A DNA stretch of 64,000 bases from Alsobacter soli. Its GTDB lineage: Bacteria > Pseudomonadota > Alphaproteobacteria > Rhizobiales > Beijerinckiaceae. The notes under the pieces were generated by a model. The model had not been told where the DNA came from and searched no databases. It saw only the letters and a list, made by a program, of their open reading frames with translations. The position numbers and the translations under genes were made by a program. Shown here one piece after another: positions 1 to 8,194 of this stretch (positions are counted from its first letter, which is position 1; every line of letters begins with the position of its first letter). The stretch covers positions 62,001 to 126,000 of the forward strand of contig NZ_PVZS01000002.1 in NCBI RefSeq assembly GCF_003004785.1. Direction: 5' to 3'.

Positions 1-549
1 CGATTCGATGAACAGGATGTCCGCCCCGGCCTTGAGGAAGGCCTCGCCGCGGCGCAGAGCCTCGTCGAGGCCGTGAGCCGTGCGGGCGTCGGTGCGCGCG
101 ATGATCTTGAACGCCTTCGACGACCGCGCCGCGGCGGCGACCCGGATCTTGTGCGCGGCCTCGTCCAGGGGGATCACGCGCCGGCTCGGGGTGTGGCCGC
201 ACTTCTTCGGGAACTCCTGATCTTCGAGCTGGATGGCCTGAGCCCCCGCGGCCTCGTAGCCGCGAACCGTGTGGTCCACGTTCAGGAGCCCGCCATAGCC
301 CGTGTCGCCGTCCGCGATCAGCGGCGTCGCCACGCCCTCCGCGATCTGCCGGACCCGCCCGACCATGTCCGAGTAGGTGGCGAGCCCGGCGTCCGGGTAG
401 CCGAGATGGGAGGCGACCACGCCGAAACCGGTCATGTACAGGGCGTCGAAGCCGGCGCGGTCCGCGATCTTGGCCGAGACCATGTCGTAGACGCCGGGCG
501 CGACGATCAGGCCGGGCTGGGCCAGGCGTTCGGAAAGGCTGGCGGGCAT
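1..549 (-). CDS. Isocitrate lyase/PEP mutase family protein, C-terminus beyond window
   Basis: The frame is open from an ATG at 549 to the window edge, giving the first 183 residues. The TIM-barrel motifs of the isocitrate lyase/PEP mutase superfamily are visible: DGDTGYG at residues 80-86 (Mg and substrate binding), LEDQ at 108-111 and the signature KKCGH at 115-119, whose Cys is the catalytic base in lyases. Members cleave methylisocitrate or 2,3-dimethylmalate, or decarboxylate oxaloacetate; the sequence does not tell these apart. It is the last visible gene of the minus-strand operon, 65 nt after the binding-protein stop. Next to a citryl-CoA-lyase-like gene, oxaloacetate or a homologue is a reasonable substrate guess (inference). 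Confidence 0.85.
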   Translation of the reverse strand, partial: MPASLSERLAQPGLIVAPGVYDMVSAKIADRAGFDALYMTGFGVVASHLGYPDAGLATYSDMVGRVRQIAEGVATPLIADGDTGYGGLLNVDHTVRGYEAAGAQAIQLEDQEFPKKCGHTPSRRVIPLDEAAHKIRVAAAARSSKAFKIIARTDARTAHGLDEALRRGEAFLKAGADILFIES

Positions 550-614: not shown

Positions 615-1805
615 CTATTGGGCCGGATAGGTGATCTTGGCCGCGGCCTTCTCGGCCGGCCACACCACCTCCTGTCCGCCGTCCGGTTTGTACTGGACCG
701 CGATCATGCTCTTCTCGGTGATGAGCTGGTGCTTGCCGCCCATCTCCGAGGGCGTGTAGGCGACCTTGCCGTACGGCGTGTCGAAGGTCATGGATCCCAG
801 GTTCGCCAGGATCTTGGTGCGGTCCCAGGAGCCGGCGGCCTTGGCGGCGTCGGTCAGGGTCTGCATCGCGACGTAGCCCTGCACGGCGCTCGACACGACC
901 TCCGCGCCGCGCTTCGCCTCCGCCTTCTTGACCCACTCGGCCAGCCCCGGGGTCGTCTGCTTGGCCGACCAGAGGTCGATCACTACGACGTTGTCCCCGG
1001 CCGGCCCGAAGTCGGAGCGCTTCTCGCCCGCGCCCTGGGTGACCAGCAGCTTCGGCTTGATCCCGAGCTGGGCGGCCTGGCGGGCGACCTGGATGTTGTC
1101 GCCCGAATAGCCGATCACGAACAGCACGTCCGGGTTGAGGCCCTTGGCGCGGTTGAGGATGGGCGAGAAATCAGGCGTTCCGGCGCGGAACGGCTCCTTC
1201 ATGACCACGTCCAGACCGGCTTCCTTCGCGTACTGCTCTGTGAACTTCGCCCCGTCCGTTCCGTAGAGCTTGTCTTCGAAGGCGATGGCGAGCGTCTTCA
1301 CGCCGGGGATGCTCTTGAAGAAGTTCACCGCGGCCTTCTGGCGGTGATAGTCCCAGATGTAGACGTGGTAGTACCAGTCGTTCTTGCCGAAGGTCTCCTC
1401 CAGCCGCACGGACGAGGAGCCCGGGTGCACGAAAATCGGCTCGGAGCGCTGGAGGGCGCTCAACAGGGCGAAATCGGCGGTGCTGCCGAAGCCGCCGACC
1501 ACCGCGTCGACCTTGTCCTGAGCCGTCAGCTTGGCCGCCACGCCAGCCGACGTGTTGGGTTCCCCCTTGGTGTCCTCGACGATGAGCTCGATCTTGCGGC
1601 CGAACAGGCCGCCGGCCTCGTTCACCTCGTCTGCGGCGTACTGGATCCCCCAGAGGATCTGGTTGCCGCCGCCCGCGAGCGGCCCGGTGAGCGGCAGCGG
1701 AACCCCGATCTTGATGGGTTGTTGCTGCTGCGCGGCCGCAGGAGCCAGCGCGGCTCCGGCGACGACGGCGGCGGTGGCCAACAGGCGGCCGAGCTTTGCG
1801 AACAT
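615..1805 (-). CDS. Liv-type ABC transporter substrate-binding protein
   Basis: A 396-residue periplasmic binding protein of the branched-chain amino-acid/amide type (Peripla_BP_6). Residues 1-25 are a classic Sec signal peptide (Arg at position 7, a hydrophobic core, cleavage after APAAA before the QQQQ run). The mature part begins PIKIGVPLPLTGPLAGGGNQ, the usual first strand and ligand loop. It follows livF by 70 nt and precedes the lyase-family gene, so it belongs to the same operon. This family binds many ligands besides Leu/Ile/Val, including aromatic acids and short carboxylates. The operon's ligase and lyase genes point to a carboxylate here (inference). Confidence 0.93.
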   Translation of the reverse strand: MFAKLGRLLATAAVVAGAALAPAAAQQQQPIKIGVPLPLTGPLAGGGNQILWGIQYAADEVNEAGGLFGRKIELIVEDTKGEPNTSAGVAAKLTAQDKVDAVVGGFGSTADFALLSALQRSEPIFVHPGSSSVRLEETFGKNDWYYHVYIWDYHRQKAAVNFFKSIPGVKTLAIAFEDKLYGTDGAKFTEQYAKEAGLDVVMKEPFRAGTPDFSPILNRAKGLNPDVLFVIGYSGDNIQVARQAAQLGIKPKLLVTQGAGEKRSDFGPAGDNVVVIDLWSAKQTTPGLAEWVKKAEAKRGAEVVSSAVQGYVAMQTLTDAAKAAGSWDRTKILANLGSMTFDTPYGKVAYTPSEMGGKHQLITEKSMIAVQYKPDGGQEVVWPAEKAAAKITYPAQ

Positions 1806-1875: not shown

Positions 1876-2598
1876 TCACAGTCCCAGATAGGCGACCCTC
1901 AGCTTCTCGTTGCTTCGCACCTGCTCGACCGTGCCCGCCAGGGCCGGGCGGCCCTCGTCCAAGACGAGGCAGTGGTCGGCGACGCTCACCGCCGCCGCGA
2001 AGTTCTGCTCGGCCATCACGATGGCGCAGCCGCTTGTCGTTTTGATGCGCCCAAGAGCCTCGAACAACTCCTCGACCAGCTTCGGGGCGAGCCCGGCGGT
2101 AGGCTCGTCCAGGATCAGGACCTTCGGCTGGATCATGAGCGCCCGGGCGATCGCCAGCATCTGGCGCTGGCCGCCGCTCATGGATCCGGCCAACTGGTCC
2201 AGGCGCTGGCGCAGGATGGGGAAGAGGTCGAAGGCGCGATCGAAGAGCCGCCTCCGGGAGGCCGCGTCGGCGTGGCGGTGGGTGGCCTCGAACGCGCCGC
2301 GCAGGTTCTCGTGCACGGTGGCGGTTCCAAAGCAGCGCGCCCCATCCGGCACAAAGGCGATCCCGGCATGGGCCAGACGCCAGCCTGGGGTCCCGGACAG
2401 GTCCGCGCCGTCGAGCCGCAGCGCGCGCCGGCCGACGTCCACGTCGCCGACCAGCGCCTTCAGGGCCGTGGTCTTGCCAGCCCCGTTGGGCCCGAGGAGC
2501 ACGAGCATCTCTCCGCCGGACACCTGGATCGCGAGCTGGGGTATGACGACGAGCTCGCCGTAACCCGCCCGCTCCAGGCTGGCCTCGAACCTGTTCAC
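1876..2598 (-). CDS. livF: Branched-chain-type ABC transporter ATPase LivF
   Basis: A 240-residue ABC ATPase. Walker A GPNGAGKT is at residues 36-43, the signature reads MSGGQRQMLAIARAL, and Walker B is VLILDEPTAGL. The GTG at 2598 is chosen because it overlaps the livG stop as GTGA, matching the overlap style of the rest of this operon; a longer frame upstream runs inside livG and is rejected. It pairs with LivG to power uptake through LivH and LivM at the inner membrane. Confidence 0.92.
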   Translation of the reverse strand: MNRFEASLERAGYGELVVIPQLAIQVSGGEMLVLLGPNGAGKTTALKALVGDVDVGRRALRLDGADLSGTPGWRLAHAGIAFVPDGARCFGTATVHENLRGAFEATHRHADAASRRRLFDRAFDLFPILRQRLDQLAGSMSGGQRQMLAIARALMIQPKVLILDEPTAGLAPKLVEELFEALGRIKTTSGCAIVMAEQNFAAAVSVADHCLVLDEGRPALAGTVEQVRSNEKLRVAYLGL

Positions 2599-3323
2599 AG
2601 CGTGAACCCCTTCCCGAGATAGGCCTCGCGCACGCTGGCCATTGTGAGAACCTGGGGCGGGGGGCCTTCGGCCAGGAGCCTGCCCTGGTTCAGCACGATC
2701 GCATGGCTGCACAGCCGGGCGATGATCCTCATGACGTGCTCGATCACCACCACGGTGACGCCGCTGGCGTGGATGTCCCGGACGAGCCCGATCACCTGGT
2801 CCGTATCTTCAAGGCTGAGACCAGCCATGGACTCGTCCAGGAGGAGGACCCTGGGACGGCAGGCCAGGGCGCGGGCGATCTCCAGGCGGCGCAGGTCGGA
2901 GACCGACAGGCGCCCGCACCGGGTGGTGACCTCCGGCCGCAGCCCGCAGTAGCGCGCGAGATCGGCGGCGCTGCGGGCGCCCCCGGGCAGGGGGCGGTCG
3001 GAGCGGGCGTAGAGCAGCGGCACCGAGATCACCTCATCGATGGTGAGCTCCTTGGGCACGCGCGGCACCTGATACGTCCGGGCGAGACCCTTGTGGACGA
3101 TCCGGTCGGGCCGGAGCCCGGTCACAGCATCCGTGTCCAGCAGCACCTGGCCGCCACGCGGCGGAATCTGGCCTGAGACCATGTTGACGAAGGTGCTCTT
3201 GCCCGAGCCGTTCGGCCCGATCAGCGCCGTGACGGCGTTCGCGGGAATGTCCAGGGTGAGGTCGTCGATGGCGCGCAGGCCGCCGAATGCGACGGTGCAG
3301 CCTCGGACGCGCACGCCGGTCAT
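2595..3323 (-). CDS. livG: Branched-chain-type ABC transporter ATPase LivG, divergent signature
   Basis: A 242-residue ABC ATPase with intact Walker A GPNGSGKS at residues 36-43. The usual LivG signature (LSYGQ or LSGGQ) is replaced by LSVSDLRRLEIARAL, and the segment after Walker B reads LLLDESMAGL rather than DEPTAGL, so Pro is Ser. The catalytic Glu of Walker B is kept. The start ATG overlaps the livM stop (ATGA) and the stop overlaps livF. Because the partner ATPase is canonical, the pair could hydrolyse ATP asymmetrically (inference). Confidence 0.92.
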   Translation of the reverse strand: MTGVRVRGCTVAFGGLRAIDDLTLDIPANAVTALIGPNGSGKSTFVNMVSGQIPPRGGQVLLDTDAVTGLRPDRIVHKGLARTYQVPRVPKELTIDEVISVPLLYARSDRPLPGGARSAADLARYCGLRPEVTTRCGRLSVSDLRRLEIARALACRPRVLLLDESMAGLSLEDTDQVIGLVRDIHASGVTVVVIEHVMRIIARLCSHAIVLNQGRLLAEGPPPQVLTMASVREAYLGKGFTL

Positions 3324-4285
3324 GACGCCAGCCTCGCCTTGATGCGGGTGCCTTCGCCCGGCGGCCTAAACCGGCGCAGGACAACACGGCCGAGGCCCGC
3401 CAGACCCTCCGGCAACCCGACGATGAACAGGATGATCACGGCCCCGTAGACCACCTGGTATCCGACGCCGCCCACCGCCTGGCGCGCGAGCTCCTCCAGC
3501 AGGCGAAGCACGACCGCGCCGACAATGGGACCGAGCGTGGTGTCCATGCCGCCCAGGACCGTGACTGCAAGCGGGAGAACGTTCCAATTCGTCGTGAAAA
3601 CGTCGTCCGGGATGACGTAGCCGTAGAGCCCGCAGTAGCAGGAGCCCGCCAGGCCGGCGACCATGCCGGACACGGCGAAGGCCAGGATCTTGAGGCGGGT
3701 CACCGGGACGCCGGAGGCGGCCGCGAGCTCGGGGTTGTTGCGGATCATGAAGAACGCAGGCCGGAAGCGCCGGCCCAGGAAGACGTCGCTGACGCCGGCG
3801 GCCACCACAAGGCAGCCGGTGACGAACAGAAGCTGGAGGGGAGGGGACCCTCCGGCGATCACCGGCGGCATGATCCCGGTCGACCCGCCGGTGAGGCCCG
3901 GGGTGACCAGGATGAGCACCTGGATGGAGAGGCTGAACGACAGGGTCGCGATCGTGAAATAGAGCCGGCGCAGGCGCAGCGTGACGGCCCCCAGCAGGAC
4001 CGCCACCAGGCCGCACAGCAGGATGCCCGCGGCCCATCCTAGGACGGGGCCGAGAACCGGCGTCAGCAGCGCCGACCCGTAGCCCCCGATTCCGAAGAAG
4101 GCGGCGTGGCCGAGGGAGACCTGGCCGGTGCGGGACAGGATGTCCCACGCGAGCGCCAGGATGGCCGAGATGAGCGTTCCGATCGCCACCTGGATCAGGA
4201 AGGGCTGGTCGGTCGCGACCAGGAGCATCGACGGGGCCGCGATCGCGGCGTAGAGGCCCAGGCGGGTGAGCAGCGAGCGATTCAT
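3320..4285 (-). CDS. livM: Branched-chain-type ABC transporter permease LivM
   Basis: A 321-residue polytopic inner-membrane permease of the LivM/BPD_transp_2 family, with roughly eight to ten hydrophobic segments and the family motif in SLGHAAFFGIGGYGSALL near residue 60. The ATG at 4285 overlaps the livH stop (ATGA), and the TGA at 3320-3322 overlaps the livG ATG. Translational coupling down the whole transporter is therefore visible in the DNA. It forms the translocation channel with LivH. Confidence 0.93.
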   Translation of the reverse strand: MNRSLLTRLGLYAAIAAPSMLLVATDQPFLIQVAIGTLISAILALAWDILSRTGQVSLGHAAFFGIGGYGSALLTPVLGPVLGWAAGILLCGLVAVLLGAVTLRLRRLYFTIATLSFSLSIQVLILVTPGLTGGSTGIMPPVIAGGSPPLQLLFVTGCLVVAAGVSDVFLGRRFRPAFFMIRNNPELAAASGVPVTRLKILAFAVSGMVAGLAGSCYCGLYGYVIPDDVFTTNWNVLPLAVTVLGGMDTTLGPIVGAVVLRLLEELARQAVGGVGYQVVYGAVIILFIVGLPEGLAGLGRVVLRRFRPPGEGTRIKARLAS

Positions 4286-5160
4286 GGATGCGCCTGCTTG
4301 CCGAAAAGGCCGCTGGGACGAACCACCAGCACGAGCAGCAGGATGACGAAGGCGATGCCGAATCCCCAGCTGCCGCCCTGCGGCACGAAGGTGCTGGTCA
4401 GTCCCTCGGTCAAGGCCAGGATGGCGCTGCCAATCAGGGCGCCGGGAATGTTTCCGAGACCTCCGAGCGCGATGATGGCGAAGGCGCGGATGACGAGGTC
4501 GACGCCGATCGTGGGCTGGACGTAAAGCACCAGCGCGACCAGTCCGCCCGAAACGCCCGCGGCGGCGCCTCCGATGACGAAGGACAGCTCGAAGACGCGG
4601 TCGACGTTGATGCCGGCGTGCGCTGCAAGGGTGGGGTCGTCGCTCGCAAAGCGCATCTGCGTTCCGTAGCGCGTGTAATTGCGGATCGCATACATCGCCA
4701 CGAACAGGATGAGCCCGACGAGCGCGACGGCGATGTTGTTGCCCGGGACGGTCACGCCGCCGAGGTTGAGGGTCGGCAACAGGGGCGGCGCCTGCATGAC
4801 GCGCGGGTCGGGCGACCACGCGATGATCGCGAGGTTCAGGATGAGGATGGAGAGGCCAAGCGTCGCCAGGAGCTGGTTGTGTTCGTCCTGCTTGAGGACC
4901 CTCGCGAGAAACCCGCGATATACGGCCGCGGAGAGGATCGCGAGCGCGACGCCGGACGCCGCCATGCCGAACCAGGGCGACAGGCCGAAGCGCGTGTAGA
5001 GCCAGTACGTCAGAAACGCGCCGAGCATGACGAACTCGCCATGGGCGAAGTTGATGATGCGCGTGACGCCGACGGTCAACGTCAGGCCCGCGGCCACCGC
5101 TGCGTAGAGGGCCGCCATCGAGAGCGCGAGCAGAACTGCCTGGATGACGGCCGTGGTCAT
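4282..5160 (-). CDS. livH: Branched-chain-type ABC transporter permease LivH
   Basis: A 292-residue inner-membrane permease of the LivH family: a hydrophobic N-terminus followed by GVTRIINFAHGEFVMLGAFL, the conserved NFAHG motif of this family. About eight membrane segments can be counted. It starts 30 nt after the ligase stop and overlaps livM by 4 nt. It partners with LivM. Confidence 0.93.
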   Translation of the reverse strand: MTTAVIQAVLLALSMAALYAAVAAGLTLTVGVTRIINFAHGEFVMLGAFLTYWLYTRFGLSPWFGMAASGVALAILSAAVYRGFLARVLKQDEHNQLLATLGLSILILNLAIIAWSPDPRVMQAPPLLPTLNLGGVTVPGNNIAVALVGLILFVAMYAIRNYTRYGTQMRFASDDPTLAAHAGINVDRVFELSFVIGGAAAGVSGGLVALVLYVQPTIGVDLVIRAFAIIALGGLGNIPGALIGSAILALTEGLTSTFVPQGGSWGFGIAFVILLLVLVVRPSGLFGKQAHP

Positions 5161-5190: not shown

Positions 5191-6525
5191 TCAGTCATCG
5201 ACCCGCTCCTCGGCGGCCTCGGAGAAGTCGAGGAGCCTCGACTTGTACTCGCTTCGGGGCAGCGAGCCGACGGGGGTCAGCGTCACCCGCGTGGTCACCA
5301 CAAGGGTGGCGCGGATGTCGTGTTCGATGCGTTCGCTCAGCGCGTCCGAGGCCTCCTCGCCTTCACGCAGTTCCACCAGCACCTTGAGCGGCGGTGCCTG
5401 CTTCACGCCCTTGGCTGCGGGGCGGACCGAGATCACGCCGGTGACCGCGGGGGCGTAGCGGTTGACCACTTCGCGGATGGCGGAGGGGAACACGTTCACG
5501 CCGCGCACGATCAGCATGTCGTCGGTGCGGCCGATGCAGCGCACGCGTGGCGAGGTGCGCCCGCATGCGCACGGGCCGGTGTGGACGACGACGTGGTCGC
5601 GGCTGCGGAACCGCAGTTGCGGCGCTCCGCGGTGCTTCAGGTGCGTGTAGACGAGTTCCCCGCGAGCCCCATCCTCGATGGGCACGGACTTCCCGGTTTC
5701 CGGCTCGATCAGTTCGAAGTGGACGAAGCCGCGCCCGGAGAAGTGCATCCCGTGCTGCTCCTCGCACTCGCCCCAGAGCGAAACCGAGATGTCGCCGATG
5801 CCCATGGCTTCCGTGACCTTGGCGCCCCATGCCGCCTCCAGCTTGGCCCGCATGGCCGGCTCGCCGCCACCGGGTTCTCCGGCCACCATGATGCGCTCGA
5901 TGCTGCCGCCCGGCAGGTCCAGCCCCCGCTCCGCGCCGATCTCGGCCAGGTGCAGCGCGTAGGAAGGGGTGCAGGCCAGGACCTGTGGTTTCAGCAGCTT
6001 CACCGCCGCGAGCAGGCGCTCGGTGTTGCCCGTGCCGACCGGGATGTGGCAGAGCCCGAGCCGCGGGAACGCGTCGAGCGCCGCGCCCGCAACGAAGGGC
6101 CCCGCGTTGTAGGTGGAGATGATCCGCTGGCCGCGAGAGAGGCCGGAAGCGCCGTAGCTGCGCGCGGAGGTTCGCACCCAGTTGTCCAGGTCGCCGGCCG
6201 TGAGCGGGATGTAGCTGGGGATCCCGGTCGTGCCGCTCGTGGAGAAGATGCGGACGATCTCCTCCATGGGAGCGGCCAGGTGAGTTCCGATCGGGTCGGC
6301 CTCGGAGCGGCTGGCCCGCAGCTCGTCCTTCTCCGTCAGCGGCAGGTCGGCGATGTCGTCGAGCCCGCCCACGGATTCAGGCGTGCGGAACCCGGAGCCG
6401 TTGAGTTTGTCCGTGAAGAAGCGGGACCGCTCGAAAAGATAGCGCACCTGCTCGCGGTACAGGGCGTCGTCCTGGGCTTTCTGCTCCGCCCAGGGCAGGG
6501 TCTCGATCGCGGGTTCCTGCAACAT
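5191..6525 (-). CDS. AMP-forming acyl-CoA ligase, phenylacetate-CoA ligase (PaaK) family
   Basis: A 444-residue adenylate-forming ligase. The ATP-binding loop STSGTTGIPSYIPLT, the A5-like region TEAMGIGDIS and the C-terminal RTDDMLIVRGVNVFPSAI hinge are PaaK-family landmarks; CACG before the hinge is a metal-binding element seen in this family. Such enzymes convert a carboxylic acid, CoA and ATP to acyl-CoA, AMP and PPi in the cytoplasm. The ATG at 6525 starts 11 nt after the stop of the citryl-CoA-lyase-like gene. The substrate is unknown; PaaK relatives favour aryl acids, but the neighbours suggest a tricarboxylate-like acid (inference). Confidence 0.88.
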   Translation of the reverse strand: MLQEPAIETLPWAEQKAQDDALYREQVRYLFERSRFFTDKLNGSGFRTPESVGGLDDIADLPLTEKDELRASRSEADPIGTHLAAPMEEIVRIFSTSGTTGIPSYIPLTAGDLDNWVRTSARSYGASGLSRGQRIISTYNAGPFVAGAALDAFPRLGLCHIPVGTGNTERLLAAVKLLKPQVLACTPSYALHLAEIGAERGLDLPGGSIERIMVAGEPGGGEPAMRAKLEAAWGAKVTEAMGIGDISVSLWGECEEQHGMHFSGRGFVHFELIEPETGKSVPIEDGARGELVYTHLKHRGAPQLRFRSRDHVVVHTGPCACGRTSPRVRCIGRTDDMLIVRGVNVFPSAIREVVNRYAPAVTGVISVRPAAKGVKQAPPLKVLVELREGEEASDALSERIEHDIRATLVVTTRVTLTPVGSLPRSEYKSRLLDFSEAAEERVDD

Positions 6526-6535
6526 GGGCGCGTCC

Positions 6536-7318
6536 TCAGTTCGTCGGGTCGTACGCGACGGCTTCTTCGGCATGGTGAGCCAGGAGGAAGCCGATGGGGC
6601 GGCGCTGCTCCTCGGCCAGGTGGCCGAGCAGGCCCGCCGTTCGCGCCAGAATCGGAATGGCCTTGGTCATCGTCGCCGGGAAGCCCAGATCCATGAGAAC
6701 AGCTGCGATCGGCCCGGAGACGTTGAGGGGCATGGGCTTGCCCCAGACCTGGGCCACAGCGCCGCGGAACGCCTTCAGGAGCTCCACGTAGCGGCCGGAG
6801 ACTCCGCGCTCGTCGGCCAGGGCGAGGATCCGTTCGGTCCGCGGGTCCACAGGATGGTGGATCGGGTGACCGAAGCCGGGGACCTTGCCCCTGCGGCTCC
6901 GGATCTCGGTTGCGATCTGCAGGGTCGCTTCGGCCGGGCTCGCGCCGCCGTCAACCCTGGCGGCGGCGTCCGACAGAATTTGCGCGCACAGCTCTGAGCT
7001 GCCCAGGACGACGGTGCCGCAACCCAGGATGCCGGCCGCGACCGCGCTTTGCAGGCTGTCGGGCGCCGCCGCGAGCGTCATACGGGCCGCCTGCGCGGTC
7101 GGGGTGAGCCCGTGCTCCGCGATGGAGATGAGCAGCAGGTCCAGGAAGAAGCGCTGCTGCTCGGACGGCCTCTCGCCTGTCACCAGGAAATAGAAGAACT
7201 CGGTGAACCCGAAGCGCCCCATGAGATCCCCGGCGAGATCGAGCCCCCGGATCTCGATCCGATCCGGCGTGGATGTGCACATCCCGCTCACCGCGGGCGC
7301 CGATTTGCCGATCAACAT
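6536..7318 (-). CDS. Citryl-CoA lyase-like protein, citrate synthase superfamily
   Basis: A 260-residue protein covering the short citrate-synthase fold. The block PGFGHPIHHPVDPR (around residues 150-163) matches the second catalytic-His region of citrate synthase and citryl-CoA lyase. At the position usually occupied by an HGG-type motif it reads VVLGSSELC, and the catalytic-Asp region reads GFPATMTKAI with no Asp. It probably belongs to a divergent subfamily whose chemistry is not assured. First gene of the operon; an AGGAG lies about 7 nt before its ATG. Citryl-CoA lyase would release acetyl-CoA and oxaloacetate. Confidence 0.75.
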   Translation of the reverse strand: MLIGKSAPAVSGMCTSTPDRIEIRGLDLAGDLMGRFGFTEFFYFLVTGERPSEQQRFFLDLLLISIAEHGLTPTAQAARMTLAAAPDSLQSAVAAGILGCGTVVLGSSELCAQILSDAAARVDGGASPAEATLQIATEIRSRRGKVPGFGHPIHHPVDPRTERILALADERGVSGRYVELLKAFRGAVAQVWGKPMPLNVSGPIAAVLMDLGFPATMTKAIPILARTAGLLGHLAEEQRRPIGFLLAHHAEEAVAYDPTN

Positions 7319-7486: not shown

Positions 7487-8194
7487 ATGGTCGGGACCGC
7501 AAACAGCAGGCCTTGCTCTGAAGGCGTGGACGAAGGTCGTCATCGGGGCGGCACGGTCGACTACGTGCTCGATCACCTGCGCGCCGGGGTGATGCAGGGA
7601 CGCTACGCGCCCGGCCAGCGCCTCATCGAAGCCGATCTCACGCGCGACCTGCGCGTCAGCCGCGGCCCGCTTCGCGAGGCCTTGCGACGTCTCTCAGCCG
7701 AAGGCCTGGTCGAGATGGTTCCCAACCGGGGAGCGCTCGTCCGGCGCCTGACTCTGCGCGAGATGAGGGAGCTCTTCCAGATCCGCGTGGGGTTAGAAGC
7801 GCTGGCGGCGCAACTCGCCGCCCAAGCGGTCGGCGAGGCCGAGGTGAGGGAGCGGTTCGAGCGCGAGATCGGTCCGATCTGGGACCAGACGCCTAGGCTC
7901 GCCGGTCCGGATTACATCAACGAGAACCATCGCTTCCACGACGCCATCACCCAGGCCAGCGGCAACGAGCAGCTGATGAAGCTGACGCGCCAGCTTCGGC
8001 TTCCGGCTTTGATGTATCAGATCGTCGGCACGCTGAAGCCCGAGAATATCGCAGCCTCGGTCGCCGAGCATCGTCTGATCGCTCGCGCGATCCTCGACGG
8101 CGACGGCCAACGCGCGCAAGAACTGGTCCGGTCTCATCTCAGCCGGGCGCTGGACGTGGCTGAAGCCACGCCAAACCAGTGGTTCTCGGCCTAG
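7487..8194 (+). CDS. GntR family transcriptional regulator, FCD type
   Basis: A 235-residue regulator. The N-terminal winged helix carries LTRDLRVSRGPLREALRRLSAEGLVEMVPNRGA in pieces typical of GntR proteins (recognition helix VSRGPLREALRRL), followed by an FCD ligand domain with the metal-site pattern NENHRFHDAI and a later SVAEHRLI. It is divergent from the eight-gene operon at 1-7318 and probably represses it, responding to a carboxylate or CoA ester (inference from family). The ATG at 7487 is chosen over upstream starts because those would run through the operator; the Shine-Dalgarno sequence is weak, so the start is tentative. Confidence 0.88.
   Translation: MVGTANSRPCSEGVDEGRHRGGTVDYVLDHLRAGVMQGRYAPGQRLIEADLTRDLRVSRGPLREALRRLSAEGLVEMVPNRGALVRRLTLREMRELFQIRVGLEALAAQLAAQAVGEAEVRERFEREIGPIWDQTPRLAGPDYINENHRFHDAITQASGNEQLMKLTRQLRLPALMYQIVGTLKPENIAASVAEHRLIARAILDGDGQRAQELVRSHLSRALDVAEATPNQWFSA

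Follow-up and report, generated by a model that had tools for sequence, protein, structure and literature searches.

The window analysed here is a stretch of 64,000 nucleotides from Alsobacter soli (contig NZ_PVZS01000002.1). Near its start, an open reading frame on the minus strand encodes a citryl-CoA-lyase-like protein, which shares its operon with genes for CoA ligation and LIV-type transport. The features of the locus, and the three diagnostic codons of the lyase-like gene, are as follows.

1..549, minus strand: isocitrate lyase/PEP mutase family gene, 5′ part, running off the window start
615..1805, minus strand: LivK-type periplasmic binding protein
1876..2598, minus strand: LivF-type ABC ATPase
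2595..3323, minus strand: LivG-type ABC ATPase
3320..4285, minus strand: LivM-type ABC permease (assigned by position and cluster only)
4282..5160, minus strand: LivH-type ABC permease
5191..6525, minus strand: PaaK-like AMP-forming CoA ligase, 444 residues, starting 10 nucleotides past the lyase-like stop codon
6536..7318, minus strand: citryl-CoA-lyase-like protein (NF004868), 260 residues, from the open reading frame and profile matches
6716-6718, minus strand: Ser201, at the Asp position, in LNVSGP (profile alignments)
6866-6868, minus strand: His151, the second His, kept in PGFGH (alignment)
7007-7009, minus strand: Val104, at the first-His position, immediately before LGSSEL (sequence and profile-profile alignment)
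7526..8194, plus strand: GntR/FCD regulator, divergent from the lyase-like gene

The isocitrate lyase/PEP mutase-family gene, truncated at the start of the window, is complete in the genome contig, where it encodes 285 residues with the motif KKCGH. The gene order of the window is shared by a Bosea plasmid and by three further loci (L003, L005 and L009); in L005, from Azospirillum, the closest relatives of the corresponding gene product are petal death protein, a carboxyvinyl-carboxyphosphonate phosphorylmutase entry and 2,3-dimethylmalate lyase. The closest solved relatives of the ligase in the PDB are phenylacetate-CoA ligases and 2-hydroxyisobutyryl-CoA synthetase. A coherent reading of the operon is that an imported organic acid is converted to its CoA thioester and that a malate- or oxaloacetate-like product is then handled: LIV-type uptake would be followed by CoA ligation and cleavage, after which the isocitrate lyase/PEP mutase-family enzyme would carry out another cleavage. 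Degradation of 2-hydroxyisobutyrate was also considered, given the resemblance of the ligase and a mutase cluster that adjoins the lyase-like gene in several loci among L011-L023; no mutase is called in the window operon.

The lyase-like open reading frame is real, and its product is a citrate-synthase-fold protein of the NCBIfam subfamily NF004868. Residues 9-257 match this 'citryl-CoA lyase' model with 319 bits (curated cut-off 193), and residues 40-238 match PF00285 (Citrate_synt) with 83.4 bits (Pfam gathering score 27). The latter match begins at position 151 of the 357 of the profile and corresponds to the C-terminal domain only. The sole other PF00285 match of the genome is full-length, lies on a different contig and scores 471 bits. 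Among sequences of solved structure, PDB entry 6hxp, a citryl-CoA lyase from Hydrogenobacter thermophilus, is the nearest (E 8e-29). An AlphaFold monomer model of the window protein, built from a 34-sequence alignment (pLDDT 82, pTM 0.77), also superposes best on 6hxp (Z 23.5, 3.1 Å over 242 residues, TM 0.74). The two proteins have in common the fold, the length, the stand-alone short form, the second His, the DPR motif and the position of Arg226.

The likeness to other members of the fold is more limited. With citrate synthase and 2-methylcitrate synthase the window protein shares homology of the C-terminal domain (structural Z of about 15-18 among the matches listed). Full-length citrate synthases have about 370 residues or more, whereas the window protein (260 residues) is devoid of the N-terminal part; it also lacks the first His, the Asp (or Glu), with Ser201 at the general-base position, and the C-terminal Arg of the RP motif. 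The citryl-CoA lyase (citrate-synthase-homology) module of ATP-citrate lyase has the same fold, keeps the second His and, like the window protein, has its first His replaced (by Phe in Chlorobium, in GPRFGG). However, it keeps the Asp (LNVDGT) and is attached to a CoA-ligase (ASH) module, while the window protein has no Asp and its AMP-forming ligase is encoded by a separate gene.

The first-pass annotation had proposed that two of the three catalytic positions of citrate synthase are missing, only the histidine of PGFGHPIHH being kept (the citrate-synthase histidines are named here after the accessible part of PMC4524684). His151 is indeed retained and both losses are real, but one of the altered sites had been misplaced. 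The first-His site, which reads HGG in citryl-CoA lyases, had been located at LGSSEL, correct to within one residue of the aligned position, Val104. The Asp site had been placed at PATMTK (residues 214-219), which begins 13 residues downstream of the residue aligned in the profile alignments and is ruled out; the aligned residue is Ser201, in a motif that reads LNVDGA in 6hxp, so that the conclusion of a missing Asp stands.

These replacements are common to a large group of proteins. Hits were reduced by dropping 15 redundant or partial sequences before the first alignment and two duplicates (L070 and L085). Among 70 aligned members, the first-His column contains Val (31), Ile (22), Phe (9) or Tyr (8), and the Asp column Ser (40), Thr (14), Gln (9), Asn (6) or Ala (1); neither His in the former nor Asp in the latter occurs in any of them. 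By contrast, the first His and the Asp are both present in all eight comparison rows, namely 6hxp, L142 and six uncharacterised citryl-CoA-lyase-like paralogues from other genomes. The second His (His151) is kept in 70/70 members, as are His69, Arg79, Asp158, Arg160, His233 and Glu236; Asn199 and Arg226 are each found in 69, the remaining row having an unknown residue. The Arg that precedes the C-terminal Tyr of citrate synthase (RPxxxY) is not conserved in the clade, since any Arg at positions 243-256 is found in only 17 of the 70. Three copies outside the 70 (L077, L079 and L084) likewise lack both residues; that of L084 (genome G297) has an in-frame TAA inside the match, possibly through decay or a sequencing error.

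We looked for residues that could take over the lost functions. A His or Asp elsewhere in the protein that would occupy the canonical places, which the first-pass annotation had named as the result that would overturn its reading, was not found by profile alignment and column conservation. Nor is there a clear substitute acid/base for the Asp among the polar residues shared by 90% or more of the 70 sequences: most of these occur in the same column of most citryl-CoA lyase or citrate synthase rows, the exceptions being Thr81 (Thr in one of the eight citryl-CoA lyase rows), Gln90 and Glu237. The only acid among the three, Glu237, is Glu in four of the eight citryl-CoA lyases and Gln in the rest and in all three citrate synthase rows. 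As the first His is also absent from ATP-citrate lyase, an active enzyme that keeps the Asp, it is the loss of the Asp that is distinctive; in the alignments with solved structures that we examined, it alone of the two losses is without precedent.

In a maximum-likelihood tree of 83 rows, built after masking the three diagnostic columns, the 70 sequences without His and Asp form one clade (support 100/99). The tree does not resolve the backbone between the lyase groups and has flagged long branches close to its root. Two changes of the His/Asp state are required over the whole tree, one of them on a two-row branch (L057 and L088). This separate citrate-synthase-like branch also lacks the first His and the Asp, and both of its rows have Tyr for His69 and Ser for Arg226. 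Between close pairs, dN/dS is 0.025-0.22 (13 of 14 pairs computable, one pair with a dS of zero being excluded and one pair with a dS above 2 being saturated). Such low values indicate a functional gene under purifying selection and rule out a pseudogene.

NF004868 matches over the cut-off are found in 17 of 398 genomes of Pseudomonadota (one even draw, own genome included), 16 of them Asp-less and one, L142, canonical. The L142 protein (L142:5653-6450; the same gene is present in L127) keeps His and Asp and scores 208 bits against the cut-off of 193; the NF004868 model thus mixes a canonical lyase with the Asp-less clade. Among plasmids, 131 records contain a relative with an E-value of 1e-15 or lower, and the names given to the listed copies, where there are any, are mostly citryl-CoA lyase. 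Residues were checked in 20 of these copies: 19 lack both the first His and the Asp, including those of a haloarchaeon and of two Rhodococcus. In the remaining copy, that of L164 (Azospirillum, 33% identity), both residues are present, and the protein is similar to the paralogue group. Sinorhizobium fredii NGR234 carries a relative at 60% identity. According to the part of PMC2864759 available to us, strain CH34 encodes no citryl-CoA synthetase/lyase route, a statement that the Asp-less protein on the CH34 megaplasmid does not contradict. By score, the window protein is a member of NF004868/PRK06224, but the name 'citryl-CoA lyase' is unsupported for the Asp-less clade. A literature search, with most subscription journals outside its coverage, showed no study of the Asp-less family or of its gene clusters among the matches listed.

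Genes were called on 71 loci and the window and then clustered, and the lyase-like gene was found in 70 of them. No lyase gene was called in L015 and L107, the former entering the alignment and tree through an earlier translation; the 70 loci of the neighbour counts include L142 and not L015, and the 70 alignment and tree rows the reverse. Three types of CoA-activating gene recur next to the lyase-like gene: PaaK-like ligases, other AMP-ligases, which belong to the same superfamily, and CaiB-type CoA-transferases, which are unrelated to them. Such a gene is adjacent in 54/70 loci (a PaaK-like ligase in 31) and within two genes in 58/70, counts that are not independent because many loci are close relatives. 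As a background, in the same loci, a CoA-activating gene lies within two places of only two of 64 genes situated at least six genes away; the models used for detection were derived from clusters of these same loci. The nearest type within three genes is PaaK-like in 34 loci, CaiB in 20 and AMP-ligase in six (L141, with two kinds at equal distance, was labelled AMP by alphabet). The ten loci with none include L142, where the canonical lyase adjoins two succinyl-CoA-synthetase-like genes that we read by eye as citryl-CoA synthetase. Of the clade's plasmid loci, the first 17 include three whose records are unannotated there; in the 14 annotated ones, the CoA-activating gene adjoins the lyase-like gene in six, lies within two genes in nine, is five genes off in two and is not listed in three (Agrobacterium, Rhodococcus DMU1 and Neorhizobium, whose gene tables are incomplete). 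A CoA-transferase gene also adjoins the plasmid paralogue L164, which has both His and Asp. The linkage is therefore a trait of the wider group and marks CoA-thioester metabolism rather than the missing Asp.

Beyond CoA activation, the neighbourhoods differ greatly, which makes one substrate common to all loci unlikely. Within eight genes, 14 of the 70 loci have a ring-cleavage gene: a LigB-type extradiol dioxygenase in seven, an intradiol dioxygenase in five and a VOC cluster, ring-cleaving in our reading, in three. Gallate-type cleavage is not claimed for the LigB genes, the one scored reaching 88 against a gallate dioxygenase cut-off of 412. Two clusters of Meth_synt_2 domain proteins are found in 12/70 and 6/70 loci over the same distance, and stand-alone Meth_synt_2/URO-D-type proteins were seen near the lyase-like gene in L097, L105, L110, L132 and others. 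The neighbours also include regulators of the IclR (19 loci) or GntR (15 loci) type and transport genes of the TRAP, LIV, TctC or TonB type. A luciferase-like monooxygenase occurs in 13 loci among L011-L027. To the left of the lyase-like gene in L011-L021, a divergent cluster comprises a luciferase-like monooxygenase, an IPNS-type oxygenase, an enoyl-CoA hydratase, a two-part methylmalonyl-CoA-type mutase, CaiB and MeaB; it is complete in only some of these loci. By eye, L093:7727-8896 and L140:4587-5648, near the lyase-like gene, are maleylacetate-reductase-type alcohol dehydrogenases, which may hint at a hydroxyquinol-type pathway.

Genes for ring-cleavage dioxygenases, for LeuCD or for beta-oxidation are a recurring feature of some loci. 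A Burkholderia glumae plasmid carries genes for an intradiol dioxygenase, the lyase-like protein, a flavin hydroxylase, CaiB, LeuC and LeuD. Cupriavidus necator N-1 has the lyase-like gene, an AMP-ligase and a dioxygenase and, after two regulators, CaiB, HMG-CoA lyase, LeuC and LeuD. In Aminobacter MSH1 and Martelella, the lyase-like gene is found with a CoA-transferase and an extradiol dioxygenase nearby, and in Sulfitobacter and Nitratireductor with an AMP-ligase, a biotin-dependent carboxylase, HMG-CoA lyase and an SDR on one side and an acyl-CoA dehydrogenase on the other. The Paraburkholderia locus has little besides CaiB and a transporter. Among the neighbourhoods examined, only that of L142, with both residues kept, resembles a citryl-CoA synthetase/lyase locus; in the others, CoA activation is accompanied by genes for transport, ring cleavage or beta-oxidation, or the context is not clear.

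With moderate confidence, we propose that the window protein is a functional stand-alone enzyme acting on a CoA thioester supplied by the neighbouring CoA ligase or CoA-transferase, most likely by C-C cleavage to an acyl-CoA and a keto acid or ketone in a late catabolic step. Our best reading of the clade is that it probably degrades something other than citrate, as an Asp-independent C-C lyase for CoA thioesters other than citryl-CoA; we infer C-C as the bond cleaved, the direction, the leaving group and the class of substrate. The roles of the residues are presumably those carried over from citrate synthase, for oxaloacetate binding and enolate formation among others. The half-site that is kept (His69, His151, Arg160, Arg226 and Asn199) would hold and deprotonate the hydroxyl/oxo-acid part of the substrate, with His151 removing the proton from the hydroxyl of the bound 2-hydroxy or 2-oxo acid. 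The lost first-His/Asp pair would be that which makes and quenches an acetyl-CoA-type enolate, the C-terminal Arg having been lost with it. As the kept residues fit a hydroxy or oxo acid and the lost pair handles the thioester enolate, an easier leaving group or protonation by solvent is favoured: the leaving carbanion of the substrate may need little help, for example in a retro-aldol reaction giving a ketone enolate, or water oriented by Ser, Thr, Asn or Gln at position 201 might protonate it. To our knowledge, biochemistry offers no earlier example of a C-C lyase with the citrate-synthase fold that works without the Asp. Moreover, human ATP-citrate lyase with its Asp replaced (D1026A) makes citryl-CoA and no acetyl-CoA, as described in the part of PMC10115795 available, and this counts against the Asp-free reading; the authors interpret D1026A there as an allosteric effect, against the model of the Asp as general base.

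We may ask whether the same pocket could serve other chemistry, such as decarboxylative condensation, cleavage of a beta-oxoacyl-CoA in place of a thiolase, or isomerisation. Decarboxylation yields an enolate without a general base, and an SDR gene adjoins the lyase-like gene in L153, L154, L155, L157 and L165, mostly amid beta-oxidation-type genes. On the other hand, thiolase genes are already present in some neighbourhoods (L157 and L152, and L108 by our own reading) and nothing indicates a specific substrate, so that we consider this explanation unlikely. A thioester hydrolase, retaining just the hydrolytic half of the citrate synthase reaction and freeing CoA from a hydroxyacyl-CoA, would form no enolate and would not miss the lost residues, and the GxGH motif is retained. 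Hydrolysis would nevertheless be futile after the ATP-driven ligase encoded next to the gene in the PaaK-like loci unless the acyl group were first altered, a step for which no enzyme is evident in the window operon; we regard this function as decidedly improbable.

That the protein is an ordinary citryl-CoA lyase as annotated, with Ser201 and a bound water replacing the Asp, would agree with a score far above the cut-off of a model of that name, with a true citryl-CoA lyase as the best structural match and with the retained His and Arg residues on the oxaloacetate side. We nevertheless find it very unlikely: no citryl-CoA synthetase lies beside the window gene, where a PaaK-like AMP-forming ligase is found instead; the sole locus with synthetase-like genes (by eye), L142, keeps His and Asp; the C-terminal Arg is not conserved; and the D1026A protein of human ATP-citrate lyase forms no acetyl-CoA. 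Finally, the protein might have no catalytic activity and serve the CoA-activating enzyme by binding CoA or by regulating it, much as an allosteric role has been proposed for the citrate-synthase-like module of ATP-citrate lyase. This would suit the loss of two catalytic residues, the close gene linkage and the argument, in the available part of PMC10115795, that the homologous ACLY module is not itself catalytic. It has little to recommend it, however, as His151, His69 and Arg160 (70/70) and Arg226 (69/70) are maintained and as the partners are of three different kinds, needing at least four changes on the tree, which suits a common metabolite, namely a CoA thioester, better than a fixed protein complex.

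More specifically, and only tentatively, the Asp-independent C-C lyase of our best reading may represent an enzyme activity new to the citrate-synthase fold, directed at the CoA thioesters of ring-fission or branched-acid catabolism and masked in databases by the name citryl-CoA lyase. Its citrate-like route could run from ring cleavage through LeuCD-type hydration and CoA activation, by a ligase or transferase, to an acyl-CoA and an oxo acid. The first-pass annotation had suggested either another mechanism or another thioester. Either would fit the clade-wide loss, the purifying selection, the missing substitute acid/base and the neighbourhoods.

The label of citryl-CoA lyase leaves these copies open to misreading as enzymes of citrate metabolism or of the reverse TCA cycle. 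If the clade cleaves C-C bonds, then the fold could do without the Asp that has been called essential in ATP-citrate lyase and whose role is disputed (PMC10115795, in the part available). Otherwise, the family would be a large set of CoA-linked non-lyases. Either outcome would correct the annotation and provide a natural test case for the dispute over the Asp of ATP-citrate lyase, and the gene neighbourhoods give a hint that ring-cleavage dioxygenases may feed CoA-dependent routes.
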